Virus record (IMG/VR): IMGVR_UViG_3300031227_000032
Span: 1 to 64,000 of that record
Length of the DNA: 64,000 bases
DNA from: a virus
Reading direction: 5' to 3' (one strand)
In this document: positions 10,456 to 61,698 of the stretch, piece after piece
How positions within the stretch are numbered: the stretch's first letter is position 1
Layout of the letters: the number at the start of each line of letters is the position of its first letter
The notes under the pieces: generated by a model
Told to the model about the DNA's origin: nothing
Seen by the model: the letters and a program-made list of their open reading frames with translations, nothing else
Databases searched by the model: none
Program-made: the position numbers and the translations under genes

Positions 10456-11634
10456 TCATTCTCCTTTCAGCGTAATAATAGGTTTCAGCTTGTGAACTAC
10501 GTCCAGTATATCATACTGCAATTCGATCACTTTGTCAACGTCCTTATACGCGGCGGGGCATTCATCCAGATACGCCTCATGCGCAGGCGTCAGCGTGTGC
10601 GCGATAGAATCAGCGAACTCCGATACTGATACTGCGCGCTTAGTTGCGGTGCGTGAGCGTACCCTACCGGCCCCGTGCGAGCAACTGTGATATGAGTCCG
10701 CATTCCCTTTGCCGCGAACGATGTAACTTGACGTGCCCATGCTGCCTGGAATAATACCAAGCTCATTCTCGCGCAATCTGGTAGCGCCCTTGCGATGGAT
10801 GATAACATTCTGCCCGAAATGATGCTCCCAAGCTGCGTAGTTGTGGTGAATGTTGATCATGCGTGATTCGTCAAGTTCGATGTTCAGCGCGGCAAGTGCC
10901 TCTCGCATCATCAGCTTACGATTTGCAAGCGCGTAGTTCAACGCCCAGTTCATATCGTGCATGTAATCTTTATGCGCATCAGTGCCGAGCGGTAAAAAGT
11001 GCAGCCCTGGCGGTACGTTGGAATGCCAGTGCGTATTAAGCTGTTTAGCAATGCCGCTGTACCATAGCGCGATATTGAATCCCGTCTTGCGCGATCCGCT
11101 GTGCAGCATAATCCACACTTGGCCGTCCTGATCGTATTGCGCCTCGATAAAGTGGTTGCCCCCGCCGAGCGTGCCGAGTTGCCTGATCTGCATTTCAAGC
11201 ACGTTAGCGAAGCTACGCCCAGGCTTGATATTCGCACGCACTTGCCCGTCAGATTCAGCGCATATGTCCTGTACAGCGTCGGCGCGTGCCTTGCTAATCT
11301 CATCATGCTTATTGAAGCCAGACGGCACACGTTCGCCAACTGCCATCAGCCAGTCAACCCAATATGCATCTGCATAATCACCGCGCATAATGCCAGTCGG
11401 ATAAGCACACATACCGCAGCCGATATCCACGCCCACTGCGCACGGCATTACAGCGCCAATCAGCGGGATAACCGAGCCGATGGTAGCGCCGTCGCCAGCG
11501 TGTACATCAGGCATAACGGCAAGGTGACGGTACAGCATAGGTAGTTTGACAATGTTATCAATCTGCGCTAGTGCTGTAGCTTCAACATCTTCGATACTGT
11601 CTAGCCAGATTTTAGCTCTGTTGTGGTCAATCAT
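10456..11634 (-). CDS. rtcB: RNA ligase RtcB
   Basis: 392 residues, close to bacterial RtcB. It joins RNA 2',3'-cyclic phosphate or 3'-phosphate ends to 5'-OH ends using GTP and Mn2+. Signatures in order: MPDVHAGDGATIGSVIP (41-57), AVGVDIGCGM (66-75, metal-binding Asp/Cys), LGGGNHFIE, HSGSRKTG, HHNYAAWEHHFG, GIIPGSMGTSSYIV and SCSHGAGR with the histidine that accepts GMP. All key residues appear present. The reaction matches repair of tRNAs cut by host anticodon nucleases. Start ATG at 11634 with AAAGGA upstream. Confidence 0.95.
   Translation of the reverse strand: MIDHNRAKIWLDSIEDVEATALAQIDNIVKLPMLYRHLAVMPDVHAGDGATIGSVIPLIGAVMPCAVGVDIGCGMCAYPTGIMRGDYADAYWVDWLMAVGERVPSGFNKHDEISKARADAVQDICAESDGQVRANIKPGRSFANVLEMQIRQLGTLGGGNHFIEAQYDQDGQVWIMLHSGSRKTGFNIALWYSGIAKQLNTHWHSNVPPGLHFLPLGTDAHKDYMHDMNWALNYALANRKLMMREALAALNIELDESRMINIHHNYAAWEHHFGQNVIIHRKGATRLRENELGIIPGSMGTSSYIVRGKGNADSYHSCSHGAGRVRSRTATKRAVSVSEFADSIAHTLTPAHEAYLDECPAAYKDVDKVIELQYDILDVVHKLKPIITLKGE
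10510..10538 (-). promoter_or_regulatory. Internal promoter in the 3' end of rtcB
   Basis: Minus strand TTGACA (10533-10538), 17-nt spacer, TATGAT (10510-10515). It would give the genes from 10451 (including ssb) transcription independent of the upstream operon. Confidence 0.65.
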
Positions 11635-38131: not shown

Positions 38132-38147
38132 CTGATTGGAGGATATT

Positions 38148-38597
38148 ATGTACAAATACATTTTAGTGCTGGTAATCTTACTCGCCGTGAGTTGCGGCGG
38201 CGGTTCGCCTGTGAATGATCCGCCCGATCCGCCAGTCAAAACGCTTGGCGGCGATTGGCTGCTGACTGCGCGCGGCGACGTGCCCGATAGCTGGCCGGAA
38301 GACGTGCAGATTTATATGCATTCCGAGCCTGATAATAGATGGGGTCTGCTGACATTGCCGCCTGCTATCAGCGAAAGTCTGAATGACGATGTAATGGAGT
38401 TTCGTAAACGCAGCCATCCGGTTATCGCCAACACACAGGTATACAATTCTGATCGTATATTTTCCGCCTACGATGATCCGCACCTGTATGGTCAGTGGAC
38501 GTTTATCAAGTCAGGCAACGGCGACTACCTCACGCTGAAGTTCCCCGACGGCGACGGCGGCGCGGTAGTGGTAGTGTATGACGCGGTGAAACAGTGA
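38148..38597 (+). CDS. Phage-encoded lipoprotein
   Basis: 149 residues with a lipoprotein signal: MYKYILVLVILLAVSCGGG, lipid-attached Cys at 16. A short Pro/Asp linker leads to a soluble beta domain with TLGGDWLLTARGDVPD and GQWTFIKSGNGDYLTLKF, like small lipocalin-type folds. GGAGG five bases before the ATG. Oriented against the tail operon with its own promoter: a typical moron. Superinfection exclusion or host-surface change are the usual roles of phage lipoproteins; none is proven here. Confidence 0.75.
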   Translation: MYKYILVLVILLAVSCGGGSPVNDPPDPPVKTLGGDWLLTARGDVPDSWPEDVQIYMHSEPDNRWGLLTLPPAISESLNDDVMEFRKRSHPVIANTQVYNSDRIFSAYDDPHLYGQWTFIKSGNGDYLTLKFPDGDGGAVVVVYDAVKQ

Positions 38598-40373: not shown

Positions 40374-40820
40374 TTAATAACCCGTCGTGCGCATTTGCCC
40401 ACGTAGTGTATTGCCGCGCGATACTTGCTGTAACCGTTGCGCTTTCGTGACGTTCAGCATTTCTGACAGCAGCCGTTCGCGTTCATTGTTAGTATCGAAT
40501 ACATAGATCGGATTGCTGGTAGACTCGCCACGGTTTTTCTTGCCGCCGAATAGTCCGCCGAATAGTGCTGATATTCCAGCGCCCAGGAATCCGCCGATGA
40601 CAGGCCCGAAGCCGCCCATGCTACCAAAGCTGGACGTGATAGCCTGTGTGAGTGGCTGTACAATCGCGTCCGCCACGCCTGACCAATCGTTAGTGCTTAC
40701 CGCTGTGAATAGTGCATCGCCTAGCTGCGCGGTGAATAGCGTAGCCGTCTGCTGTGCTTGCTGTGCGATTTGCTCAGTAGCTCCACCAGTAGCGCCCAGA
40801 CCGGACGCATCAGCCGTGCC
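40374..40820 (-). CDS. In-frame extension of the tape measure beyond a TGA
   Basis: From the TGA at 40821-40823 the same frame stays open for 148 codons to a TAA. The first 49 codons (GTADASGLGATGG, then TEQIAQQAQQTATLFTAQLG) have no good start; a GTG at 40676 has no Shine-Dalgarno. The C-terminal part has the Gly/Phe-rich hydrophobic segment GFGPVIGGFLGAGISALFGGLFGG seen at tape-measure C-termini (given in parts: GFGPVIGG, FLGAGISALFGG). Either readthrough of UGA, a broken tape-measure gene, or a separate small protein. Confidence 0.55.
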   Translation of the reverse strand, partial: GTADASGLGATGGATEQIAQQAQQTATLFTAQLGDALFTAVSTNDWSGVADAIVQPLTQAITSSFGSMGGFGPVIGGFLGAGISALFGGLFGGKKNRGESTSNPIYVFDTNNERERLLSEMLNVTKAQRLQQVSRGNTLRGQMRTTGY

Positions 40821-43502
40821 TCAACCGCCAGGGCCGCAAGCCGCATTACTTTCGCCGTATGTAGGATCATACCCACCGGCCATAATGCCGATACCGCGCA
40901 TCTCCAAGCCGAGTGCTGCAGCCCCAACGCCCATGTGTGATTGTTGAGCAACAGCGCCTAGTGCCCGTCCGCCAATGTCAGCAGGGGTGTTACGAATCCA
41001 ACCTGCGCTATCACTACCACCCGACTGGGCGGCCACATCAGCGGCTAGACTTAACGCATCATTAACTGTCCGCTTGGCCGTTGCCAGTGAGCCTATTAAT
41101 GATCGCTCGATAGCATCAGTAACCGCCATAATCGAAGCCACTGATGCGGTCTGCATTGCAGTAAACGCACTGACCATTTCAGTATGCAGATCAGTAACGC
41201 GCTGTAAGACACGTGGCACGGATTCATCTACAGTGTCATAAATCCCTTTCCACATGTCAGGCCAGATTGAATGGCCTACAATGAGATCCCACGCCCATTG
41301 AAATGGAGCCACTACGTTCTTTGCGAATGTCTCGATCTCTTTAACGACCTTGCCTACAAATTCAGTTACGGTAGCCCATATGCCATCCCACAAGCCAACC
41401 CAGAACTCCGTTATATCAGTATTGACGTTTTCGAACCATTCAGTAATATCATCAATGAAGCCAGATATAAACTCGCCAGTATTAGCAGCAATTGTATCAG
41501 CAGTATCGGCGATAGTTTGCCATGCTCCCGACCAATCGCCAGTAATCAATTTCAGCCCAACCTCGAAGATACCACCGACAATAGCAAGCGCGTTTTTAAC
41601 AACAAGTTTGATCGCATTCCATACGGTTGAAATGACAAGCTTAATGCTTTCCCACACAATGCTAACAGCGGCCATGAACGGCGGCCCCCACTTATCCCAT
41701 ATGATCTTGATAGCATCCAACGTAACGCTAAATGCTTCTTTAATCAGTGGCCAGTTTTTCATCCACCAATCAATGATCGGCTGTACTAACTCCAGCGCCT
41801 CAGCGCCAAGCCAACCGAATACCTCACCGGCTTTATCCCTTATGGCAGTGAGTGTCGGACTGATTTTATCCTTGACTTCCTGAATCTTTTCTGCGAACGC
41901 GCTAGCCTTTTGTTCACCCTCAGTCAACGGCCCGACGAATCCGTCAGCAGGTGCTTTGCCTGTCAACGCATCCCATGCTGCGCGAACTGTTTCAATCCTT
42001 TCGGCCAGAACTTGCGCGCTAACCTCCGCCTCACTCAATGGCCCGATAAATCCCGACTGAATCTTATCCGGCCCCTGCCCAGTCAATGCCAGCCATGCCG
42101 CCTTGACAACATCCATAGCCTGTGCTATCTGCGGGAAGTTGCTGTCAGCAAATGATTTAATCTTACCCCAGTTGGCGATGATCAACGCACCGCCCGCCAC
42201 AATAGCAGCTACAGCAATCCCGATAGGGCCAGTCATGGCGGTAAATGCAACACCAATACCTGGCGCGGCAGCTACTATGTTCCCAATGATCATCAGCAAC
42301 GGGCCAAGTGAAGCTACCACTCCGGCGGCAATCACTCCGAAATTCAATAATACTGGATTGGTTTTTGCCAGATTTTGCACGAACGGTATTGCGGCTTCAA
42401 CTAATGAGACAAAGCCGTCAAGCAGTCCGCTGTCTGAGATTGACAAGCCTAAGCCCTGCACTGCTGAACTGAGTCGCGTCAATACCGGCGTTACTTCTGT
42501 AGCGATCCGCGCAGCCGTGCCAGCCGAGGCCAGGTTCGCCTCAGATAGTCTTTCTAGTGCCGCGCTGCCCTGATTCACCAATGCGGCCATAGCTGGCCCT
42601 GCACGCTGTCCAAAAATAGTCATAAGCTCAGCGGTTCTTTCCACTTCGCCCATGCCTTCCAATCCCTCTTCAAACTGCGCGATGATATCAACAAGCGGCA
42701 GCATAGCACCATCCGCACCTTCAATACTAACTTTGAGTTTCTTAAGGGATGCAGTGGCCTTTGCGCCTGGATTGATCAGTAGCGATATAGCGGTCTTGAG
42801 TGACGTACCCGCCATGCTTCCCTGAATACCAGCGTTACCTAACAGACCAACAGCGGCAGCGACCTCTTCAAACACAAGCCCAGATGATGATGCAATCGGG
42901 CCTACGAACTTCATTGATTCGCCAAGCATCCGCAGATCAACATTGGCGCTAGTGAATGTGTTAGTCATTACATCCGCTACGCGCGTCATTTCAGTGGCCT
43001 CAAGGCCGAAACCAGTCAGGATGTTAGACGCAATATCGGCAGTAGTCGCTAGATCAATCTGACCAGCGGCGGCAGCGTTCAACACACCGGGCAACGCGCC
43101 GATAATATCCACAGCCTTGAAGCCCGCCATTGCGAGGAAGCTCTGTGCATCAGCGGCTTGCTTGGCTGTAAACGCCGTGGTCTCGCCAAGCATTTTGGAC
43201 TGCTTACGTAGCTTCGCAAACTCTTCAGCGGTGGCACCTGACAATGCACGCACGCGATTCATCGAGTTCTGAAAGTCAATGCCGAGCTTAATGATCGCAG
43301 CGCCGACGCCGACGATAGGCAACGTCAAGCCCATCGTCATTTTTCTGCCGACGCCCGCCATCTGACTGCCCGTCTTTTTCCACGCGGCGGCTGTCTTTTG
43401 CGCAGCAGTGACGCCCTTTTTACCAGCGTCAGTCAGCGGCTTGCTGAGCTTGTCTTTCAGCTCTAGTACAACCTCTAAGATTTTCTGATCAGTGTTTGCC
43501 AT
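40821..43502 (-). CDS. Tail tape measure protein
   Basis: 893 residues from the ATG at 43502. The N-terminal TP901-1-type core (LGIDFQNSMNRVRALSGA, FTAKQAADAQSFLAMAGF, AMAGTSLKTAISLL) is typical. Several hydrophobic segments lie near 400-460, and paired DALTGKAPADGFVGPLTE repeats near 490-540. Sets tail length and exits with DNA. The frame ends at a TGA after ACGPGG, and the same frame continues for another 148 codons (see extension). Overlaps the upstream gene by 14 nt. Confidence 0.9.
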   Translation of the reverse strand: MANTDQKILEVVLELKDKLSKPLTDAGKKGVTAAQKTAAAWKKTGSQMAGVGRKMTMGLTLPIVGVGAAIIKLGIDFQNSMNRVRALSGATAEEFAKLRKQSKMLGETTAFTAKQAADAQSFLAMAGFKAVDIIGALPGVLNAAAAGQIDLATTADIASNILTGFGLEATEMTRVADVMTNTFTSANVDLRMLGESMKFVGPIASSSGLVFEEVAAAVGLLGNAGIQGSMAGTSLKTAISLLINPGAKATASLKKLKVSIEGADGAMLPLVDIIAQFEEGLEGMGEVERTAELMTIFGQRAGPAMAALVNQGSAALERLSEANLASAGTAARIATEVTPVLTRLSSAVQGLGLSISDSGLLDGFVSLVEAAIPFVQNLAKTNPVLLNFGVIAAGVVASLGPLLMIIGNIVAAAPGIGVAFTAMTGPIGIAVAAIVAGGALIIANWGKIKSFADSNFPQIAQAMDVVKAAWLALTGQGPDKIQSGFIGPLSEAEVSAQVLAERIETVRAAWDALTGKAPADGFVGPLTEGEQKASAFAEKIQEVKDKISPTLTAIRDKAGEVFGWLGAEALELVQPIIDWWMKNWPLIKEAFSVTLDAIKIIWDKWGPPFMAAVSIVWESIKLVISTVWNAIKLVVKNALAIVGGIFEVGLKLITGDWSGAWQTIADTADTIAANTGEFISGFIDDITEWFENVNTDITEFWVGLWDGIWATVTEFVGKVVKEIETFAKNVVAPFQWAWDLIVGHSIWPDMWKGIYDTVDESVPRVLQRVTDLHTEMVSAFTAMQTASVASIMAVTDAIERSLIGSLATAKRTVNDALSLAADVAAQSGGSDSAGWIRNTPADIGGRALGAVAQQSHMGVGAAALGLEMRGIGIMAGGYDPTYGESNAACGPGG

Positions 43503-43839
43503 TCTTTTTACTGCTCGCCTTTTCTTTAGCCGCGTCAAGCTCGGCTATTTTTCTGTCAATCACGCCCATCGCAGATATGTACCAAACAGGTTGATCCTCA
43601 AGCCCGCCTGCACGGAATGAGAATCCATTTTTGTAATGAGCATATAGCCCATTCAAGTAAACGCTCAGTTCGGATACATCTTTCCACGGGCAGTGGGTAG
43701 CATAGATAGGCTCTATGCAATCCCCCACCCGTCGCTCGTCAATCTGCAGCATCCCATCTGTACAACCTACTCTACAGTTAGCTTCGTCAAAGTTGCATCC
43801 GGAACATCGGTCTCCGATTCCGTGCTGGAGTTTGATGTA
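43489..43839 (-). CDS. Tail assembly chaperone, -1 frameshift extension (GT-like)
   Basis: Read in the -1 frame after the slippery site at 43839-43845. It gives a 116-residue extension: YIKLQHGIGDRCSGC, then NFDEANCRVGCTDG, then MLQIDERRVGDC and a helical end. An internal ATG at 43752 has no Shine-Dalgarno. With the upstream 128 codons it would make a fusion of about 244 residues. In lambda, the G-T fusion loads onto the tape measure; the gene is directly before the tape measure here as well. Confidence 0.75.
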   Translation of the reverse strand, partial: YIKLQHGIGDRCSGCNFDEANCRVGCTDGMLQIDERRVGDCIEPIYATHCPWKDVSELSVYLNGLYAHYKNGFSFRAGGLEDQPVWYISAMGVIDRKIAELDAAKEKASSKKNGKH

Positions 43840-44222
43840 AAATTTACATCGGCAGTTTCCTCCTTATTCAGCCCGCCGATAGCCTCACTGACTGTAAGTG
43901 CGATATTCGTAATCAACTCCAGCGGAAGGCGCTTCATTGATGCCTTGTCAATAACATCCTCACGCTCCCCGCAAACCTTGACCTTCTCGAACGTCGGTTT
44001 GAAATCCTCACCGTCGTCTTGCAATCCTTCGATGTCAGTCAACATCAACTTAACCAGCATGTAATTCAGCTCGCCGCCGTTCACTTCGCCGTGCTTATCA
44101 GTGACATTGCCGATCAGCCAGAATTGCATACGGTTATCAATGTCGCGGATTTGGTAGCGCACACTATCATCGCATTCAGCGGTGAACCATCCACCGGTTA
44201 CTTTTGGGGACAATACTTGCAT
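43767..44222 (-). CDS. Tail assembly chaperone (G-like)
   Basis: 151 residues between the major tail protein and the tape measure, the standard place for the chaperone. Beta start, then MLVKLMLTDIEGLQDDGEDF and an acidic Ser/Thr/Glu-rich C-terminus. AGGAG six bases before the ATG at 44222. Contains the slippery A AAT TTT at codons 126-128, so a fraction of ribosomes would shift to the -1 frame. Confidence 0.8.
   Translation of the reverse strand: MQVLSPKVTGGWFTAECDDSVRYQIRDIDNRMQFWLIGNVTDKHGEVNGGELNYMLVKLMLTDIEGLQDDGEDFKPTFEKVKVCGEREDVIDKASMKRLPLELITNIALTVSEAIGGLNKEETADVNFTSNSSTESETDVPDATLTKLTVE
43839..43845 (-). promoter_or_regulatory. -1 ribosomal frameshift site A AAT TTT
   Basis: Minus-strand heptamer in the zero frame GTA AAT TTT ACA: a canonical X XXY YYZ. 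The -1 frame is open from here to 43489 and overlaps the zero-frame end by 73 nt. Confidence 0.8.
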
Positions 44223-46225: not shown

Positions 46226-46887
46226 TAGTATGACCTGCGGATATATCCGTCCAGCACGGTCTTAACTTCTGGCGTCATGCCCTTATTGAATCGCTGGATT
46301 AGAAACTCCTGTCCGGTAACTTCAACGCCCTTCACGCCCAACCTGCCACCGCCGCCGCTTGCGCCCTTGCCCTCTAACCACTTCAGCACAGCCATAGTAC
46401 ACACCGCCCATTCCAGATCAGCGGGCACGCCGAAACTTGCAGTCATGGCTAACGTATCCCAGCTCGTGGTGATGTATCCCGCGATGTAAGTGACTTTGAT
46501 ATTCTCATCACCGATAGGCCACGCGCCGTATTCCGCATCATCCTCTTGCCCCAACTTCGGATAGCGCACGTGGAATGAAATGCCGCGCTCATCTTTCAGC
46601 AGTTGCATGTATGAGGTAGATTCGCTCACATATGTCTCAGTGCCAGTATCCCAAATGCTGACAGCACTTAGCGCAGTGACAGGCTCCTCGTTCAGATACA
46701 ACAGCGTGCGATCATCACCGGAGTAATACTCATCAGTGATGGTAGACGATTCTAGCCGACGGTTGCAGTATTCGTTGACCTCTACTGTCGCAGCTTCAAG
46801 TAACAGCTTGAATGAATCGTCATATGTCGTCTCAGGTTCATTCAGCAGCAAGTCATCTTTCATTACGCTTAATCTACCTAGTGCCAT
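46225..46887 (-). CDS. Head-tail connector (gp6/gp15-like)
   Basis: 220 residues. Helical N-terminus LLLEAATVEVNEYCNRRL, beta middle with DRTLLYLNEEPVTALSAVSIWD, and ENIKVTYIAGY then DLEWAVCTMAVLKWLEG: the connector pattern. Docks on the portal. Overlaps the DUF115-like gene by 10 nt. Confidence 0.85.
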   Translation of the reverse strand: MALGRLSVMKDDLLLNEPETTYDDSFKLLLEAATVEVNEYCNRRLESSTITDEYYSGDDRTLLYLNEEPVTALSAVSIWDTGTETYVSESTSYMQLLKDERGISFHVRYPKLGQEDDAEYGAWPIGDENIKVTYIAGYITTSWDTLAMTASFGVPADLEWAVCTMAVLKWLEGKGASGGGGRLGVKGVEVTGQEFLIQRFNKGMTPEVKTVLDGYIRRSY

Positions 46888-47513
46888 TGTTGCAATAACT
46901 CCCTGGCCACCGGTACATCGAGTAGCGTTGGCGATAGTGATTCTATTCTGATTCCGTTATCTTGCGCGCGGTATATCATTGTCTGTAATGTGCCGCGCTT
47001 GTAGCCCCAAATGTCCCCCTCAGAGCGCTTGCCGTCACAGGTTGACCCGTCGGCGTGTGCGTGACCTGTCATGTCAACTCCGCAATAAACGATATGCCGA
47101 CACCCTTGCTTAATCAACATGTCAGTCGCAACACCCGCTACAGTGCCGCCCGCAACTAAGTAGCTTTCGCCAAGTCGCTTAGGTGCTTTGTTGTATGCGT
47201 ATTGTCTGCAGGCATACGTCGGGTTATGTTCGCGCATCCGGTGATCCATCAGTGACTCAACGCCGCTATGTAATCCAAACTCCCACCATTGCGGGTTGAT
47301 ACCGGGCGCTTCGGGTGATGTGCATATCCATAGATCGAAGTTGAGCAGGTGTTGTATCGAGCCGTTGACAGCGACAGTGTAGATGTTATCGGGTATGCGG
47401 TTTATGTAAGCGCTACCTAGCGGCCCAGCGCCTACTATGATGGATGGATTAGTTACCGGTAGCTGCGCATCGAATATGTCTATGGGCGTAGTATGTTCTG
47501 AGGAGGTATTCAT
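46878..47513 (-). CDS. DUF115-like glycosyltransferase/Rossmann protein
   Basis: 211 residues from the ATG at 47513 (a TTG at 47531 is possible; no Shine-Dalgarno seen). SIIVGAGPLGSAYINRI is a Rossmann start, then TVAVNGSIQHLLNFDLWIC, and HIVYCGVDMTGHAHADG. This pattern matches DUF115 proteins, found in flagellin or surface-sugar modification loci. It resembles the C-terminal half of the protein at 53760. Overlaps the Kps-like gene by 65 nt. Confidence 0.65.
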   Translation of the reverse strand: MNTSSEHTTPIDIFDAQLPVTNPSIIVGAGPLGSAYINRIPDNIYTVAVNGSIQHLLNFDLWICTSPEAPGINPQWWEFGLHSGVESLMDHRMREHNPTYACRQYAYNKAPKRLGESYLVAGGTVAGVATDMLIKQGCRHIVYCGVDMTGHAHADGSTCDGKRSEGDIWGYKRGTLQTMIYRAQDNGIRIESLSPTLLDVPVARELLQQWH

Positions 47514-48432
47514 GATTGAGGTATTGTGCAACTTCGTATACGCCGGTAGACTGGATACTATTCAGCTTGTTTGTAAGTACAGTTTGATAATCTTCGTTGA
47601 CTAACTTTATGCCGTCCGTCAGCTCTGACAATCGGAATACGCCTGACGGATGTTCATGTATGGGCGGGATGCCAGCGTGATATACCGCCCTGCCCGCCAT
47701 AAGCGCCTCGTATCCAGCGGTAGAGTTGATTGTTACTACCGCATCACACCTTGCTAAATCCTTAGCGTAGGGGCGCTTCATTTGCCAATCGTCGGTTACT
47801 GAGATTTCAACGCCGTCTATCGGATCGCTGAGCATCGGATCAGGATACCACGTTATGTCTGCTGTAAACTCTTTATTCTGTAGCGCAACGCATTTAGGAT
47901 GCGGTCGATATGTCAGCTTTGCGTTAGGTAATATTGTAGACACTTCGGCTACAAGTGTAGATGAATTGTATCCATTGCCGCCGTATGCTAGTGATTGATC
48001 GCTCTGTATCTGTCCAACGATAAGCACGCTTTTAATCTCAGCGTCAGTCTGTAGCGCGGGTTTAGTCGCTATGTATTGCTGCGAGGTCATCGCACGCTGA
48101 AATGTATCTTCGGTGTACAGCGCCCAGTCGAATCTATCGCCTGCATAATGACTAGCGTAGGGTAACGCATAATGCCAGTAGTGTATACCAGCATCGCGGA
48201 ATGCCTGTCGCCGTGCATCATCATGGTCAACGTATTCCATGGCGAGTACTGTATCAATACCGCGCTCTATGCAATCAGCAACGCTATCATCTTCCAGCAG
48301 CCACAACTCGCCGAATGATTTAAGCAACGTCGGCATACGGACTGTATCGGGATGATCGAAGCGCCCGCGTAAATGCGGCATGATGGCAATGTGGCGGTGT
48401 TGTAGCTCGCTGTTAGTGTGGAGTAGTTTCAT
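47449..48432 (-). CDS. Kps-like glycosyltransferase (capsule/surface-sugar family)
   Basis: 327 residues. A GT-B-like pattern: IKSVLIVGQIQSDQSLAYGG, LTYRPHPK, then DAVVTINSTAGYEALMAGRAVYHAG. The RPHPK and TINSTAxYEALM motifs are those of KpsC/KpsS-type enzymes that build capsule linkers. It is homologous over its length to the first 330 residues of the protein at 53760. A sugar-transfer role is inferred; acceptor unknown. Overlaps both neighbours. Confidence 0.7.
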   Translation of the reverse strand: MKLLHTNSELQHRHIAIMPHLRGRFDHPDTVRMPTLLKSFGELWLLEDDSVADCIERGIDTVLAMEYVDHDDARRQAFRDAGIHYWHYALPYASHYAGDRFDWALYTEDTFQRAMTSQQYIATKPALQTDAEIKSVLIVGQIQSDQSLAYGGNGYNSSTLVAEVSTILPNAKLTYRPHPKCVALQNKEFTADITWYPDPMLSDPIDGVEISVTDDWQMKRPYAKDLARCDAVVTINSTAGYEALMAGRAVYHAGIPPIHEHPSGVFRLSELTDGIKLVNEDYQTVLTNKLNSIQSTGVYEVAQYLNHEYLLRTYYAHRHIRCAATGN

Positions 48433-49564
48433 TTATCTCGCCAAACAAACTTCGCTGTTGAGTCCGCTTCTTTGCCAACTCTGCATACTCCGGGTTAAGC
48501 TCGATCCCTACCCACTGCCTGCCCAATGTCTCGGCTACTTCGCCTGTCGTGCCGCTGCCGAAGAACGGGTCTAGCACTATGCCGCCTTCAGGACACCCCG
48601 CCAGTATGCATCGCCGTGGTATCTCAGGCGGGAACACTGCGAAGTGCGCGCCGCTGTAGGGCTTGGTAGCGATTGTCCAGACGTTGCGGGCGTTGCGGGT
48701 TTCACCTCTGCCGCTGAGCATTGCTCGAGTACCCTGCTTGCTGGTGTCTGATGCTCGAGATAGGCTATCGCCTTTGTGCGCGATATTCCCGCCGAGCCGC
48801 TGATAGCATTGCCGCATGCCCGGGAAGTTCACATCTGTTTGATTAGGTTCGCTGATCGCATCCGCGTCATACCAATAATCCATTCCCCGCCACAGGTTAA
48901 TCCGCCGCCAGTCTGCCATCATTACTTCGGGTGGCTCAACGTCGGTTTCCTCTCTGGTGTGTTTATTGATCCATCGGTAATCCGTCAGATGCACGTATGA
49001 CCACTCACGGGAATCACGGTGTCGCCAGACGGTTGTGTTACCACTCTTGGTCAGCAGGTAGATATGCTCATGCGCTGACGTTGGGCGATCCTTGCAACTC
49101 TCGGGCATCGGGTTAGGCTTTGCCCAGATGATGTCACTACGCAGCCACCAGCCGTCAGCCCGCAGCGCCAGGGCTACACGGGCGGGGATCATGCACAGGT
49201 CTTTGGGTTTGAGTCCTGGGGGTAGTTTGCGCCGTGGCAATGCAGTTCCTTCCGCTTGCCCAATGTTACGACCAGTGGTGCTGTTCGCCCCTTGTTTGCC
49301 TGTCATACATCCAACGCTGTAGCTATCCCCCAGGTTCAGCCAGCATGTGCCCTCGGGTTTTAGCACGCGCCGCACTTCGGCGAACACCGCTACCATCTTG
49401 GCGACATATTCATCCGGCGTGGATTCAAGGCCGATCTGCTCATCGTTGCCATAGTCACGCAAGCCCCAGTAAGGCGGACTGGTCACACAGCAATCAATGG
49501 AATCAGCAGCCATGCCGCGCAGGATTTCGATACAGTCGCCAACGCGGATGGTGTTAGTCTCCAT
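48413..49564 (-). CDS. DNA methyltransferase, beta class (N6-adenine or N4-cytosine)
   Basis: 383 residues. Catalytic motif TSPPYW (28-33), then a target-recognition region, then the SAM motif DPFFGSGTTG near 340: this order marks the beta class. SPPY is common to N4-cytosine and some N6-adenine enzymes. No restriction gene is nearby, so it likely shields phage DNA from host restriction. Overlaps the neighbours by 11-20 nt. Confidence 0.9.
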   Translation of the reverse strand: METNTIRVGDCIEILRGMAADSIDCCVTSPPYWGLRDYGNDEQIGLESTPDEYVAKMVAVFAEVRRVLKPEGTCWLNLGDSYSVGCMTGKQGANSTTGRNIGQAEGTALPRRKLPPGLKPKDLCMIPARVALALRADGWWLRSDIIWAKPNPMPESCKDRPTSAHEHIYLLTKSGNTTVWRHRDSREWSYVHLTDYRWINKHTREETDVEPPEVMMADWRRINLWRGMDYWYDADAISEPNQTDVNFPGMRQCYQRLGGNIAHKGDSLSRASDTSKQGTRAMLSGRGETRNARNVWTIATKPYSGAHFAVFPPEIPRRCILAGCPEGGIVLDPFFGSGTTGEVAETLGRQWVGIELNPEYAELAKKRTQQRSLFGEINETTPH

Positions 49565-50429
49565 TTAGCTCATCATCCACAACGCGCACTATGGGTTGCT
49601 CAGGATCATTGGTTGCGAAATCATGCACCATCGGATGTTCGCCCGCTTCTGGATGTTCTGCCATCTCCCATGGCGGCTTATCCGTCACTGTCATTATTGA
49701 TTTAACTTCGCCAATCTTTACGGGCAAACCATCATCATCCCTGAAACACAGATCGGCTATTGGCTTACGTTTCATCGCATAGACTTCCATCATGTTACCT
49801 GGCCATGCGAAGTTGTATTTGAATCCTAACAGCTTGCCGATGAACTTAAACCAATCCCACGTATCAGCATAAGGCGTTCCGTGATATGGCAACTCAATAT
49901 CTGTAATCACCATGCCGACATGTCGCAAGATGTTACACAGTTCACGTTCGCCGAATGTCACATAGTTATACGCAGGATCGAGTGCCGGTAAGTCACCGAA
50001 TAGCCTATACACTATGCTGTCAGTATTGGGCGTTGCGAGGAATATCATGTATCCCCCTGGACGCAAGCGTTCAACGCATTCGCTGATCACTGTTAGCGGA
50101 TTGTCAAGGTGCTGGATAGTGCCACGGAATACTACAACATCGTAGTAATCGTAGCGGTATTTATACGGATGTACTGTGATGCCTTTGCTTGCAGCAATCT
50201 CGCGCGCATGGTCTGATACTTCGATGCCGTGCTTAGTCCACGTATCGGGGAACATCTGCAGAAAATCGCCGATACCACAGCCGTAGTCCAGAATGCGATG
50301 CCGCTTATCGAAGTCAGGTATCAGCGTTTCGATACGCGCGATCTCCTGTCGGTACATCTCCGCGCGCTTCGGATCGTCGCCGTATGCCGAGAAGTAGTCG
50401 GCGTTGTATAGCTTTTGGGGGCTAGTCAT
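49554..50429 (-). CDS. SAM-dependent class I methyltransferase
   Basis: 291 residues. The SAM-binding motif RILDYGCGIGDFLQMF (about 43-58), then YDVVVFRGTIQHLDNP and GGYMIFLATPNTDS, is a class I small-molecule or sugar methyltransferase. N-terminal MTSPQKLYNADYFSAYG resembles enzymes in O-antigen loci. The C-terminal 80 residues are acidic and unique. GGGAG five bases before the ATG. Confidence 0.8.
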   Translation of the reverse strand: MTSPQKLYNADYFSAYGDDPKRAEMYRQEIARIETLIPDFDKRHRILDYGCGIGDFLQMFPDTWTKHGIEVSDHAREIAASKGITVHPYKYRYDYYDVVVFRGTIQHLDNPLTVISECVERLRPGGYMIFLATPNTDSIVYRLFGDLPALDPAYNYVTFGERELCNILRHVGMVITDIELPYHGTPYADTWDWFKFIGKLLGFKYNFAWPGNMMEVYAMKRKPIADLCFRDDDGLPVKIGEVKSIMTVTDKPPWEMAEHPEAGEHPMVHDFATNDPEQPIVRVVDDELNGD

Positions 50430-50924: not shown

Positions 50925-50930
50925 ACCACC

Positions 50931-50959
50931 ATCATACCACACTACCGAGCATTTGTCAA
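50931..50959 (-). promoter_or_regulatory. Promoter of a predicted leaderless mRNA
   Basis: Minus strand TTGACA (50954-50959), 17-nt spacer ending GTGTGG, TATGAT (50931-50936), ATG after 6 nt. Confidence 0.85.
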
Positions 50960-50963
50960 CCCC

Positions 50964-51377
50964 TCATCGCGCATCCTGTTTCCATGCCGCGCGTTTCGCG
51001 CAGGTATCCAGTGCATCAGCTTGGGCAATGTTCGCCGCCCCGATCTTGTCAACCTGCGCCGCCGCCTCGTTTGCTGTATCATGCACTGAGAATGTAAGCC
51101 CATATCCGCCGTGCCAAACAAGTTCATACCAAATGGCGCGGTAACGGGTTTCGTCTAATGCGTTCGTCTCGGCGATGATCTCTGGCAGTATGCGTAGGAA
51201 ACGCTGATGGTCAGGCATTTTAGTATATGGCGTCTCACTGTAATAATCAATATCATTGGCGTGGCTTACCTGATCAATGTGTTCGGCATGTTCGAGCGCC
51301 GCCAGCATGCTTTCAAATCCTAACCTTTTGATAACCGCCTTTTTCCAGTCCCAGCAACTGCCGCCATCAGTGAAACC
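50964..51377 (-). CDS. In-frame extension beyond a TGA of the membrane protein at 51378
   Basis: After the TGA at 51378-51380 the same frame stays open for 137 codons: GFTDGGSCWDWKKAVIKRLG, an ATG at 51308, then a soluble helical region (MLAALEHAEHIDQVSH ... AQADALDTCAKRAA). No good ribosome binding site precedes the ATG, and the codons before it read as normal protein. Either readthrough of UGA, a stop-split gene, or an independent protein of 114 residues. Confidence 0.5.
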   Translation of the reverse strand, partial: GFTDGGSCWDWKKAVIKRLGFESMLAALEHAEHIDQVSHANDIDYYSETPYTKMPDHQRFLRILPEIIAETNALDETRYRAIWYELVWHGGYGLTFSVHDTANEAAAQVDKIGAANIAQADALDTCAKRAAWKQDAR

Positions 51378-51758
51378 TCAACCGCCAGATGATGATGATG
51401 TTCCTTTCTGCACACCTCCCCAATAAATATCATATTGATCGCCGTCTTTGATTATCCATGCTGGCTTATGCAAATCACTCAATGCGCATTTAGCAACATA
51501 TGTGGTACGTTGTGTATTGCATAATGAATATCGGATAGCGTATATTGGGAGCGCACATAATACCAATATACACAGGGCCATAATGACTATACATATCGTT
51601 GATCCCACACAGGCGACTTCAGACATCTCATGCCCATCTGCCGCAGATTGGGTAATGTATGCGTATTGTGGCCCTGCCACTTCATCACACGAACAAGTTA
51701 GCGTAACTATCAGCAATATACTGATTAACGCAACTGCAAATTGCAAATGTTTGTTCAT
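51378..51758 (-). CDS. Membrane or lipoprotein-like protein, leaderless start
   Basis: 126 residues. N-terminal signal (LQFAVALISILLIVTLTCSC, a possible lipobox at the last Cys), a transmembrane helix (VGSTICIVIMALCILVLCAL), then a cytoplasmic or external tail ending in SSSSGG. ATG exactly 6 nt after the -10 box at 51765-51770. The stop is a TGA in the shared CTGGCGGTTGAGG context, and the frame continues. Confidence 0.65.
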   Translation of the reverse strand: MNKHLQFAVALISILLIVTLTCSCDEVAGPQYAYITQSAADGHEMSEVACVGSTICIVIMALCILVLCALPIYAIRYSLCNTQRTTYVAKCALSDLHKPAWIIKDGDQYDIYWGGVQKGTSSSSGG

Positions 51759-51764
51759 GCTTAC

Positions 51765-51793
51765 ACTATACCACACTCCGCGCCGTTTGTCTA
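51765..51793 (-). promoter_or_regulatory. Promoter of a predicted leaderless mRNA
   Basis: Minus strand TAGACA (51788-51793), 17-nt spacer ending GTGTGG, TATAGT (51765-51770), ATG after 6 nt. Confidence 0.75.
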
Positions 51794-52270: not shown

Positions 52271-52276
52271 ACTACC

Positions 52277-52305
52277 ATCATACCACACTATCGCGCTTTT
52301 GTCAA
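52277..52305 (-). promoter_or_regulatory. Promoter of a predicted leaderless mRNA
   Basis: Minus strand TTGACA (52300-52305), 17-nt spacer ending GTGTGG, TATGAT (52277-52282), ATG after 6 nt. The -35 overlaps the stop of the upstream gene. Confidence 0.85.
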
Positions 52306-53540
52306 CCCCAGACCACGCATTCATCACGCATCCTGTTTATCCACGTCAGCAGTTGCCAGTAATCCAACTCCAGCCCATGCGCAATATCCAGCACTGACAG
52401 CCTGCCGTCCAGCAAATCGAGCACGTCGGCGTATTTCAGATTGAGTTGCCGATCCTGTCGCCAGTCTACCCATAGCCCATGCTTCGATAAACAGATCGGC
52501 CCTTGCCCCGTGCGTTGCGGATACCAGTCGCTATCCATCATATCCAGCAGATCAGCAACGCGGTTAGCGGCGTCCATTATCAAGCTGGGGTGTAGGCGCT
52601 CCGCAGTGTCCAGGCTCGTGTGATAGCCGTAATATGGCACCTCACCTTTCGCCCAGCAACGCGCACGGCTTATACTGACAGCTGGGATGCCGACGTTGTT
52701 ATACACCTTTTCATCATTGCTTACAACGGTGCGGTATGGCTCGGCCTCATCACAGACCAGCACGCCAGCTTTGTCAATCAGCGATTCATCGAACGGCGAG
52801 TGCTGTAATACTAGCCTGTTATCATTGCCCAGCATATCCAGCGCGATAGCGTAGCGGATGTTATGCTGCTCGTTCGCCAAGTATGCGATAGTGCCGATGG
52901 TCTCAGGTAGCCACAGAAATCTCAACCCATACTTACGCGGCGTATCGCGGAGTCGCTTCACAAGCTCGACCATCGCAACGCAACCTGACGCATCATCGTT
53001 CGCCTGCATCGGATGGCAGACGTGCGCTGTCAGCACAATCTCGGCGTCAAGCGTGCCAGGTAGGTACACCTCGCCGATGGCAAGTTCGCCGTCGCTAAAC
53101 TCGCTGTCGATAAGCACGCGGTATTCGTCAGCATCGAACTCGTGTAGGCGGTCATGCTGAATGCAGAATGCCCACGCTGGTTCGTAGTATGAAAACTCAA
53201 ACGGGATACCCGCTGGGCAATCCTCACGACTGCGCACATGTTTCATCAGCTCGTTATGGCTGATCGCAGTATCGACCGCCGTGCTGTAGCTCATCACGTG
53301 CAGCGGATGGTCGTCAGTGGATACGATGATACTACCGTCGGGACGTGCGATGTATGCTGTGCGGCACTCCCACTTCGGCGGTATCGTCCAGTCCCATACC
53401 TCACTGCCGGTCGGGTAGCGATGTATTTGCAGCTCCGGTAGGCGTGCGGCAATCGCGCCAAGTGCCGTATCGTAGCCGTCTGAGATGAGGTCACGGCGGT
53501 ATGCGCTGATTTCGTGAAGTAGGTTTTGCATAGTTGACAT
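52302..53540 (-). CDS. DUF4910 aminopeptidase-like protein
   Basis: 412 residues. The order PTGSEVWDWTIPPKWECRTAYI, PLHVMSYSTAVD, HVCHPMQANDDASGC (metal ligands His and Asp), PETIGTIAYLA and YGYHTSLDT is the DUF4910/M28-type fold. The family is typical of surface-polysaccharide loci, where it probably trims or modifies amino-sugar substrates. A C-terminal winged-helix-like tail follows. No Shine-Dalgarno at the ATG; a second ATG lies three codons on. Confidence 0.75.
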   Translation of the reverse strand: MSTMQNLLHEISAYRRDLISDGYDTALGAIAARLPELQIHRYPTGSEVWDWTIPPKWECRTAYIARPDGSIIVSTDDHPLHVMSYSTAVDTAISHNELMKHVRSREDCPAGIPFEFSYYEPAWAFCIQHDRLHEFDADEYRVLIDSEFSDGELAIGEVYLPGTLDAEIVLTAHVCHPMQANDDASGCVAMVELVKRLRDTPRKYGLRFLWLPETIGTIAYLANEQHNIRYAIALDMLGNDNRLVLQHSPFDESLIDKAGVLVCDEAEPYRTVVSNDEKVYNNVGIPAVSISRARCWAKGEVPYYGYHTSLDTAERLHPSLIMDAANRVADLLDMMDSDWYPQRTGQGPICLSKHGLWVDWRQDRQLNLKYADVLDLLDGRLSVLDIAHGLELDYWQLLTWINRMRDECVVWG

Positions 53541-58878: not shown

Positions 58879-59766
58879 TTAAGTTTTCGGGCGTAATTGT
58901 TTATCACCTGGTAGCATCGGTGACAATCCGCAACGGCATTGAATGTCAAACGCAGCCTTGCCGCTCAGCATCGGCCCTTCGATGAAACCGACCTGATTGA
59001 ATGTATCAAACAGCCCGTCCGCATCCGTCACGGCTCCGTCCATGACGATGTGACTGTACATGTCTTTGCCACCGCCACGTACTAAGCTATCGCGTGCCGT
59101 TAGCCACTCTGAACGTATCACAACATCCAAGTATTCGGCGGACTGTTTGTAACCTTCAAGCTCTGCTTTAATGTCCGCACGTCCGACTTCGGTTCTAGCA
59201 ATAGCGTTGCTACGCGGTTGTGTGATCGCATCAGTCTTGCCTGACCATTCGGCGTATTTCTCACTGATTGCTTTCGATGTAACCTTGAAGCCCTGATCTG
59301 CAGTATCAGCGATGATGACCTCTAACTTTGCCGCGCTGGTTTTGTCAATCAGGTTAGAGCGTATATGTAAATTCTCAGTAAGCCACTTCCGGAAGTCAGG
59401 GCGATCAGGTGCGAACGCCGGTAGCTTTTCCGCTGCCAGTACTGCAACCTCATCGACTGCCAACTGCCCGAACTCAGCTACTAACTCAGCTTGCAATGGG
59501 CCAATGATCGCAGCATACGCGGCATTTTCCACTTCAGGATTCAGCAACGGCTTAGGCTTATCAGCGCGTGTCTGTGCGGTCTTGAGTACCCGCGCCTCCT
59601 GACCTACCCAGTATTTTTCAATGCCCGCCTTGTAGCGTTCCTGCCACGGCTCGCGTATCTTATCCTGATCGGCTAATCGCTCCTCACGATCAGCCAGCGT
59701 TGGATACTTACTGCTGGGGAATGTAGGCTCATCGCCTATATCGTCATCGACCCGATGACTTGGCAC
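58879..59766 (-). CDS. MuF-like minor head protein, in frame with the portal across a TGA
   Basis: 295 residues from a GTG at 59766 with only GCGGA upstream. A helical N-terminus, then ATDAITQPRSNAIARTEVGRADIKAELEG and the C-terminal FNQVGFIEGPMLSGKAAFDIQCRCGLSPM, typical of phage MuF/head-morphogenesis domains (Cys/His near the end). It is in the same frame as the portal, separated by TGA (TGC GGA TGA GGC GTG). A portal-MuF readthrough fusion is possible; MuF proteins normally bind the portal. Confidence 0.8.
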   Translation of the reverse strand: MPSHRVDDDIGDEPTFPSSKYPTLADREERLADQDKIREPWQERYKAGIEKYWVGQEARVLKTAQTRADKPKPLLNPEVENAAYAAIIGPLQAELVAEFGQLAVDEVAVLAAEKLPAFAPDRPDFRKWLTENLHIRSNLIDKTSAAKLEVIIADTADQGFKVTSKAISEKYAEWSGKTDAITQPRSNAIARTEVGRADIKAELEGYKQSAEYLDVVIRSEWLTARDSLVRGGGKDMYSHIVMDGAVTDADGLFDTFNQVGFIEGPMLSGKAAFDIQCRCGLSPMLPGDKQLRPKT

Positions 59767-59769
59767 GCC

Positions 59770-61122
59770 TCATCCGCAGGTTTCCAGATACGAACGCATA
59801 GCGCGCGCCGCCTCTTTTGTTTCATTCTCTTCGGTATCGACTCCGATCTCCTCTGGCTGGAGTTGTTTCAATGTATCTGGCAGTCTGATATACGGCTTGT
59901 TCAACGGGTTATCCGGATCGTCAGGCTCGATCATTTCAAGCCCGCTGGCTTCGCGCTTTTCGTTCGGGGTCATCCAATCGCTGTTAGCAAGGTTGTGCAC
60001 TCGTTCCGTTACGTTATCCTGCAGCGCGTTGATTCCGCTTACAATCGGTAACAGCTTTACATCATCTTCAAGCCCCATCTTAGGTAACACAAACTCTGCA
60101 AACTCCTCGCGGAATAAGCGATGCAATGGCAATACTGTATTCTCATAGAGGAATCGTTCAGCGGACTCGACATTGTTATACGTTGATGATTTGTCATCGC
60201 CGACTAACTGTGACGGCACGCCCAGCGCCGCGCAGATATGCCGCATTGTCACACCAGCGCCGCTAGTCCAGTCCATCTCTTTCGGGCTATGCGCGAGTGC
60301 CATATAGTTAGACTTCTCGCCGTCAATGAAAGCCGTCGCGCCTGCGTTAGATGCACCGCTGAACTTATCGTTGTAATCCTGCTCAATGCGTGCGCGCACT
60401 TGCGGAGTCAGTGAACTCCAACCCGTAATCTGCAACACACCGCCTGGTACTGCACTATTAGTAAGTAGCTTAGAGTTCCAAGCTAGCTGTAGGTTGCTGG
60501 TATCAATGTCCGTCGCTGCAGCATTCAATGGTGATAATCCAAACATCGGATGCGCAGGATCGGTGAACTTCACGTTATACATTTCGTCAGGCGTCAGATA
60601 GCGTTTATTGCCAATGCCTGTTTCGATAACGTACCGACTGACTGTGCGATTATCTGTGGTTTCAATCGTCACGCGGTCAGGCAATTCGAGATACATTTCA
60701 GGTGCGGTCTTGGGTTGCGTCTTGCCATTAGTCGTGCGCTTGCCAATGCCGATACCTTCGATGTATGTGATACCGGCAAGGTGAAGCTGATTAGACCACA
60801 GCGCGATGAACTCGTGATAGCCTTGATTCGGATTGAAGCGCTGCACTAAGTTGTACAACGGCTTGACGCGCGGGGCTATATCATCCTGCGTTACAATCTC
60901 GCCCTCATACTCGATGCCGATTGGTACTGCGCAAAGGCCGTTGCCGATTACCCGCAAGCAGGCATATACAATCGGATTGTGCCGATACGCCTCTTTGTAA
61001 AACTCATTGAATCGGCGCGCGCGAAACTCAGCACTGACACCGTTAGTATCCTGAATCGTCAGAACCTTAGCGCGCAACATCGACCGTAGTATGAAGTTTT
61101 GGAATCGTTGTTTAAGGTTCAT
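59770..61122 (-). CDS. Portal protein, HK97-like
   Basis: 450 residues. EAYRHNPIVYACLRVIGNGLCAVPIGI near the N-terminus, then LYNLVQRFNPNQGYHEFIALW and DRVTIETTDNRTVSRYVI, plus ASGLEMIEPDDPDNPLNKPYI near the end, is the HK97/lambda-type portal. Forms the dodecamer through which DNA enters. Ends at a TGA in a Gly-TGA-Gly context, followed in frame by the MuF-like protein. Confidence 0.95.
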   Translation of the reverse strand: MNLKQRFQNFILRSMLRAKVLTIQDTNGVSAEFRARRFNEFYKEAYRHNPIVYACLRVIGNGLCAVPIGIEYEGEIVTQDDIAPRVKPLYNLVQRFNPNQGYHEFIALWSNQLHLAGITYIEGIGIGKRTTNGKTQPKTAPEMYLELPDRVTIETTDNRTVSRYVIETGIGNKRYLTPDEMYNVKFTDPAHPMFGLSPLNAAATDIDTSNLQLAWNSKLLTNSAVPGGVLQITGWSSLTPQVRARIEQDYNDKFSGASNAGATAFIDGEKSNYMALAHSPKEMDWTSGAGVTMRHICAALGVPSQLVGDDKSSTYNNVESAERFLYENTVLPLHRLFREEFAEFVLPKMGLEDDVKLLPIVSGINALQDNVTERVHNLANSDWMTPNEKREASGLEMIEPDDPDNPLNKPYIRLPDTLKQLQPEEIGVDTEENETKEAARAMRSYLETCG

Positions 61123-61125
61123 AGT

Positions 61126-61653
61126 TTATCCCGTCGCCAATATATGAAATGGCGGCTTGACCGTTCCCTGTAGCGCCGCTGATGCTGATAGCGCAGTCTT
61201 AATCCTAGTCTTGGGCGCTTGCCCAGCAGTGCTGTATAGCGAGCCTAGCGCAACCATATAGCCGCTCCCTACTGATTCGTAGCCGCAGTGCGCACGGTTG
61301 TACTGAAAGTCATGAAAGTTATACAGGTGCTTACCCCACGCGATCAGGAATTGCCCAGCGGACGCTTTGTTATTTTCCAGCGCGGCAAAGTTTAGATCAG
61401 TGAATACCGGTCTCAGTAACTCGGTTATGTTGTATGCGTGGCGGTCAGGATCATTATGTATTTGGTCAGGCCACTTGACACCGTGCTTTAGAATCTGAAT
61501 CATACGATAATCCGTCGTGCCGCCCATGACATACGGCCCGCGCTTGAATAGCTTGCGGTCGCCCTGTGAGATGCTAGTCCACTCATTCGCCGCCGCGCTG
61601 TCAGCTCCCATGTACACGACGCCTTTATGCTTTAGGGCTACAATGCAAGTCAT
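61126..61653 (-). CDS. Ntn-hydrolase, proteasome beta/HslV-like
   Basis: 175 residues. MTCIVALKHKGVVYMGADSAAA with Thr2 as the nucleophile after Met removal, then GTTDYRMIQILKHG and a SGYMVALGSLYSTAG segment, match the proteasome-like peptidases found in many phages. May process virion or host proteins. GGGAG five bases before the ATG. Placed between terminase and portal. Confidence 0.8.
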   Translation of the reverse strand: MTCIVALKHKGVVYMGADSAAANEWTSISQGDRKLFKRGPYVMGGTTDYRMIQILKHGVKWPDQIHNDPDRHAYNITELLRPVFTDLNFAALENNKASAGQFLIAWGKHLYNFHDFQYNRAHCGYESVGSGYMVALGSLYSTAGQAPKTRIKTALSASAALQGTVKPPFHILATG

Positions 61654-61663
61654 CTATACTCCC

Positions 61664-61692
61664 TTGACAAATGCTGGATAGTGTGTTATGAT
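61664..61692 (+). promoter_or_regulatory. Promoter of a predicted leaderless mRNA
   Basis: TTGACA (61664-61669), 17-nt spacer, TATGAT (61687-61692), ATG at 61699 after 6 nt. Confidence 0.85.
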
Positions 61693-61698
61693 GATGGT

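Follow-up and report, generated by a model that had tools for sequence, protein, structure and literature searches.

Does the tape-measure gene of this virus end at its first stop codon, or do some ribosomes pass that codon in frame and add a further module to the protein? The window that we analysed comprises bases 1-64000 of an uncultivated virus record of 72,516 bases, and the gene lies on its minus strand. Translation from the ATG at 43502 down to 40374 (-) gives 893 aa ending in ...SNAACGPGG (the short form, 40824..43502), followed by a TGA at 40823-40821 in the context CCT GGC GGT TGA GGC ACG. As the earlier note had described, the frame then stays open for 148 codons (40374..40820), reading GTADASGLGATGGATEQ...RTTGY, as far as a TAA at 40376-40374 that is directly adjoined by the ATG of the next gene. 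The product matches Pfam PhageMin_Tail (E=1e-46) and numerous PHROG tail length tape measure families, and it is a long helical protein encoded between the tail-tube region and the distal tail genes, as a tape-measure protein (TMP) should be; the record holds one TMP, carrying one internal TGA. Two ORFs at 43489-44222 (-), which separate the TMP gene from the putative tail-tube gene, occupy the expected place of a G/GT frameshift pair, and no obvious classic slippery heptamer was found near the end of the first of them. Within the tail operon, the other strand carries a lipoprotein-like ORF (38136-38597 (+)), possibly a moron gene.

The sequence past the TGA resembles protein-coding DNA from its first codons. 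Scored with a codon-usage model built from the virus's own genes, the 148-codon tail yields 0.30 bits per codon, a value reached by none of 1,394 out-of-frame windows of the same length drawn from those genes. Past the TGA, no ATG, GTG or TTG occurs before codon 49, a GTG (position 40676), and the 48 codons ahead of it score 0.45 bits per codon, with none of 1,792 out-of-frame windows as high. Since no out-of-frame window matches these codon scores, the earlier description of the tail as protein-like at once was right, as was the statement that it contains no credible internal start. The same 48 codons bear on the simplest alternative, namely that the TGA is a true stop and an ordinary gene end, with the downstream part a separate gene that lies in frame by chance. 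Here such a gene would have to start at GTG 40676 or at a non-canonical codon, and the coding-like composition of the TMP frame upstream of that GTG makes a separate ordinary gene unlikely at this site. On the other side, many genes of this virus start directly after a stop without a Shine-Dalgarno sequence, and same-frame neighbours split by TAA or TAG are common in it.

Relatives say little about where the protein should end. We scanned viral contigs and, once, bacterial genomes with the TMP, the TMP tail, an 806-aa tail protein, the portal, a portal-MuF alignment, the capsid, the terminase and the membrane protein described below as queries, and these scans returned distant matches or none, with no close relative alignable across the stops. 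The best portal relatives share about 33% identity and the N-terminal half of the TMP up to 50% (viral-contig and bacterial-genome scans), and neither the tail nor the C-terminal quarter of the TMP has a significant match among phages or plasmids. A tape measure of 878 aa from a Paenibacillus phage can be aligned up to about residue 832, beyond which the two diverge, and so it does not settle the proper end of this TMP. The Gly-rich hydrophobic segment reported for the tail is indeed present; for the further claim that it is typical of a TMP C-terminus the profile support is marginal, with phrog_28 scoring 258 bits without the tail and 261-263 bits with it. The stop might also be a nonsense mutation, or, the contig being derived from a metagenome, a strain mixture or an error in the consensus may have produced it, and the tail would then be the end of an interrupted gene: the sequence rests on a single uncultivated virus record, and TGA is one substitution away from sense codons. 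That a single base change, GGA to TGA, could have produced the interruption holds for the sequence, and GGA as the ancestral codon is unsupported.

What distinguishes this TGA is that it is one of three. We searched the entire record for stops with a coding-like open frame on both sides. Three TGA codons proved to continue directly within a gene, and all three are Gly-TGA-Gly: GGT TGA GGC in the TMP gene (40823), GGT TGA GGT in a membrane-protein gene (51380) and GGA TGA GGC between portal and MuF (59772). The latter two interruptions, at 51378-51380 and 59770-59772, were absent from the earlier note. The 10-mer GCGGWTGAGG is found three times in the window, where 0.26 matches would be expected; none of 100 shuffles reaches three, and each match is an in-frame TGA with an open frame after it. 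The controls were 175 other loci from phages and bacteria, about 2.35 Mb in all; in these, glycine stands on both sides of none of 47 TGA junctions and of 2 of 157 junctions at any stop between two open frames. Given the composition of this virus, the probability of at least 3 Gly-flanked codons among 14 TGAs is about 5e-5, and that of at least 2 among 13, leaving out the TMP site that was already flagged, about 0.002; we worked out these probabilities, and did part of the counting, once the pattern was already known. In a Gly-rich linker, moreover, glycine neighbours are more likely by chance, which counts against the reading that the stops are bypassed. Mutation or error would require three independent events in the same Gly-NNN-Gly context, in a record where we found no other interrupted genes, and we consider that explanation unlikely.

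All three Gly-flanked TGAs continue in frame, and the 11 remaining TGAs, on the minus strand, terminate genes. Two of these, GGT-TGA-CAA at 52302 and CGA-TGA-GGG at 50964, carry glycine on one side and serve as controls; a promoter and then a new gene come directly after each. The TGA at 50964, where GG follows, was for that reason rejected as a further bypass site. The usage of TGA also bears on the possibility that the code of the virus or its host is reassigned, with UGA read as Gly (code 25) or Trp (code 4). The Gly neighbours at all three sites fit such a reassignment, and UGA encodes Gly in Gracilibacteria, Absconditabacteria and some of their phages (PMC10746230); clearly code-25 phages, however, are dense in in-frame TGA (PMC10746230), and the present virus has 3 internal TGAs in 72.5 kb against 11 terminal ones, several of them without an early back-up TAA or TAG. 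We found no tRNA gene, suppressor tRNA, Rfam match or known RNA element in the record. The 11 gene-ending TGAs and the absence of a tRNA gene argue against a reassigned code, which we rejected on TGA usage and regard as highly improbable.

In all three genes the stop may stand at the end of a complete unit, most clearly in the portal gene. The portal protein (450 aa; 59773..61122 (-); Pfam Phage_portal, E=2e-49) ends at a TGA at 59770..59772 (-) in the context ACC TGC GGA TGA GGC GTG, past which the frame encodes a MuF-like head morphogenesis domain (58879..59769 (-); phrog_2468, E=2e-14) with GTG as its second codon. The portal-MuF family phrog_2662 (about 717 aa) covers residues 36-736 of the fused product with E=7e-63, compared with E=1e-47 for the portal part alone. 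Portal and MuF form a single ORF in Bacillus phage Silence and on a plasmid of Exiguobacterium sp. PFWT01, and are kept as two genes in other phages. Ordinary gene ends are easier to accept here than in the TMP gene, as several relatives have separate portal and MuF genes and a GTG (59766) from which MuF could start lies two codons past the TGA. The surroundings of the portal site are not Gly-rich, unlike those of the TMP and membrane sites, which lie in Gly/Ser-rich stretches. Between the terminase and portal genes, 61126-61653 (-) encodes an HslV-family peptidase-like protein (phrog_1040, E=2e-14).

The third gene encodes a small membrane or lipoprotein-like protein of 126 codons (51381..51758 (-)) with its own sigma-70-like promoter (51793-51765), interrupted at 51378..51380 (-) in the context TCT GGC GGT TGA GGT TTC. 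The in-frame extension (50964..51377 (-)) has 137 codons, the first ATG being codon 24, and ends in TGA, after which the promoter of the next gene (50959-50931) follows. The N-terminal part is hydrophobic and lipoprotein-like and the C-terminal part coding-like in codon usage; the 23 codons directly past the TGA are weakly coding-like (p about 0.06). If this TGA were an ordinary gene end, a 114-aa protein would start at ATG 51308, which has AGGA 9 nt upstream. Each of the small genes near 51 kb has a strong promoter of sigma-70-like type, at 52305, 51793 and 50959, but no comparable promoter lies between TGA 51380 and ATG 51308, where a search gave no match of 10-of-12 or better. The TMP site is the only one of the three without a nearby downstream start. 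Across the three sites, ordinary gene ends would leave the common Gly-TGA-Gly 10-mer to coincidence, and we hold this explanation to be doubtful.

Several further observations concern this region and the sites themselves. The promoters at 50929-50959, 51765-51793 and 52275-52305 (-) are similar, of the TTGACA-17-TATGAT type with an extended -10; small genes that are inserted between structural genes have such sigma-70-like promoters ahead of them, and an additional copy of the type lies at 61664-61694 (+). A homology between the fused membrane protein and the neighbouring small protein was not convincing (p = 0.02, from a short match of the C-terminal part only). Nearby, 52302-53540 (-) encodes a DUF4910/DUF2172 peptidase-like (M28) protein, and 46878-50429 (-), between head and tail genes, holds MptE-like, capsule-synthesis-like, N6/N4 DNA methylase and MetW-like methyltransferase genes. 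An RtcB-type RNA ligase (10456-11634 (-); Pfam RtcB, E=1e-102) is unusual cargo and may relate to RNA repair during infection. The TMP (40803-40831) and membrane-protein (51360-51388) sites (-) have in common a 13-mer, CTGGCGGTTGAGG, after which both read N5-CTGATG. At both, an overlapping ATG is found 8 nt past GAGG, in the +1 frame. As this ATG opens short ORFs only, it does not explain the tails at these two sites, and we rejected it as their source.

We hypothesize that the UGA in the TMP, portal and membrane-protein genes is passed in frame by some mechanism, a proposal on which the sequence evidence leaves us evenly divided. At the TMP gene, passage by some ribosomes would produce, beside the 893-aa form, a longer one with about 148 additional aa. 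Two TMP isoforms, already proposed when the locus was first described, are in our view the best reading of it, and the two further GGN-TGA-GGN sites strengthen the proposal; readthrough, the mechanism then named, is not established, and the matched Gly codons fit an in-frame stop hop at least equally. In synthetic constructs, a stop hop occurs when peptidyl-tRNA leaves one codon and re-pairs with a matching codon one past the stop, so that 9 nt give one amino acid (PMC5009743). The same 2016 review suggests that some cases termed readthrough might be in-frame stop hops, and knew of no natural ones (PMC5009743). Release factors are inefficient in vitro on peptides with a C-terminal Gly or Pro (PMC7246954, citing Pierson 2016).

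Applied to this virus, the signal would be the short motif GGN-UGA-GGN (here NGC GGW UGA GGY) in the TMP, portal|MuF and membrane-protein genes. With glycine as the last residue, release at UGA would be slow; peptidyl-tRNA-Gly on GGU or GGA would detach and re-pair with the GGC or GGU just 3' of UGA. The hop would be +6 and in frame, with 9 nt yielding one Gly, and reading on in the same frame would add the C-terminal module. The flanking codons GGT/GGC and GGT/GGT fit one tRNA-Gly, whereas GGA/GGC at the portal site is a two-base match, so that the match is full at two of the three sites; the step from GGA to GGC, not ideal for one tRNA-Gly, speaks against a hop. We put forward hopping by peptidyl-tRNA-Gly as a possible route, tentatively. 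That a natural in-frame stop hop acts as a reusable GGN-UGA-GGN signal, giving short and long forms of the TMP, portal and membrane protein that would both be used, is a broader suggestion, which we offer with somewhat greater reserve.

The stops could instead be passed by near-cognate readthrough, in which a tRNA (e.g. Trp, or a Gly tRNA) occasionally decodes UGA to give ...GG-X-G..., and the Gly flanks matter only through slow release after Gly and tolerance in flexible linkers. UGA-G is not known as a leaky context. A coding extension directly after the stop, as programmed readthrough would have, is seen in the codon usage of the TMP tail and in the MuF domain past the portal stop; a leaky context or 3' structure is not, the stop being UGA-G and the TMP and membrane sites lacking a structure. 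Stimulatory RNA structure was no stronger than chance at the TMP (z = 0.4) and membrane (z = 0.6) sites, the portal site scored z = -2.7, and no structure common to the three was evident. UGA readthrough is an established viral strategy (PMC8310308), slow release after Gly (PMC7246954) would assist it, and the TMP and membrane sites do sit in Gly/Ser-rich stretches. It leaves unexplained, however, the 3' GGN at all three sites, above all at the portal site with its different surroundings, and the record lacks a suppressor tRNA. Decoding of UGA by a near-cognate tRNA would require no glycine codon 3' of the stop; that matched GGN codons flank each of the three stops, including the portal stop with no Gly-rich stretch around it, speaks for the hop. 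We judge near-cognate readthrough rather improbable.

Were the hop real, a natural nine-base site repeated in three genes would make in-frame stop hopping directly testable outside artificial constructs. The predicted hop peptides are SYLETCGVPSHR (portal) and GTSSSSGGFTDGGSCWDWK (membrane protein), and the corresponding readthrough forms are two residues longer; the spanning tryptic peptides are short at two sites. Gene callers would then be cutting such phage proteins at a false end. Should the mechanism prove to be readthrough only, the sites would still form an unusual recurrent recoding site in structural genes of a tailed phage.

Among known systems, the coat (A1) readthrough of Q-beta is an example of viral UGA readthrough. 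There too, a stop ends a complete structural protein and is followed by an in-frame extension, an arrangement that would here give short and long isoforms; the present virus differs in being a tailed dsDNA phage, and the known readthrough contexts do not include Gly on both sides. Frameshift fusions of the lambda G/GT type likewise depend on recoding, which yields one short tail protein and one with a C-terminal extension, but in our case the frame is unchanged, and the genes encode the TMP, portal and membrane protein and not a tail assembly chaperone. The fused portal-MuF proteins of Bacillus phage Silence and the Exiguobacterium plasmid have the identical domain order without interruption, whereas here a TGA stands between the parts. 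T4 gene 60 bypassing likewise involves peptidyl-tRNA-Gly, a take-off Gly codon beside a stop and landing on Gly (GGA/GGA) (PMC5009743); some 50 nt are bypassed there, and a take-off stem-loop is required among other signals, while in the present genes the gap is a single codon and two of the three sites showed no stem. The stop hop of synthetic E. coli constructs also has matched codons around the stop, 9 nt read as one amino acid and the frame kept (PMC5009743); the candidate sites described here lie in natural phage genes, occur three times and use Gly codons.
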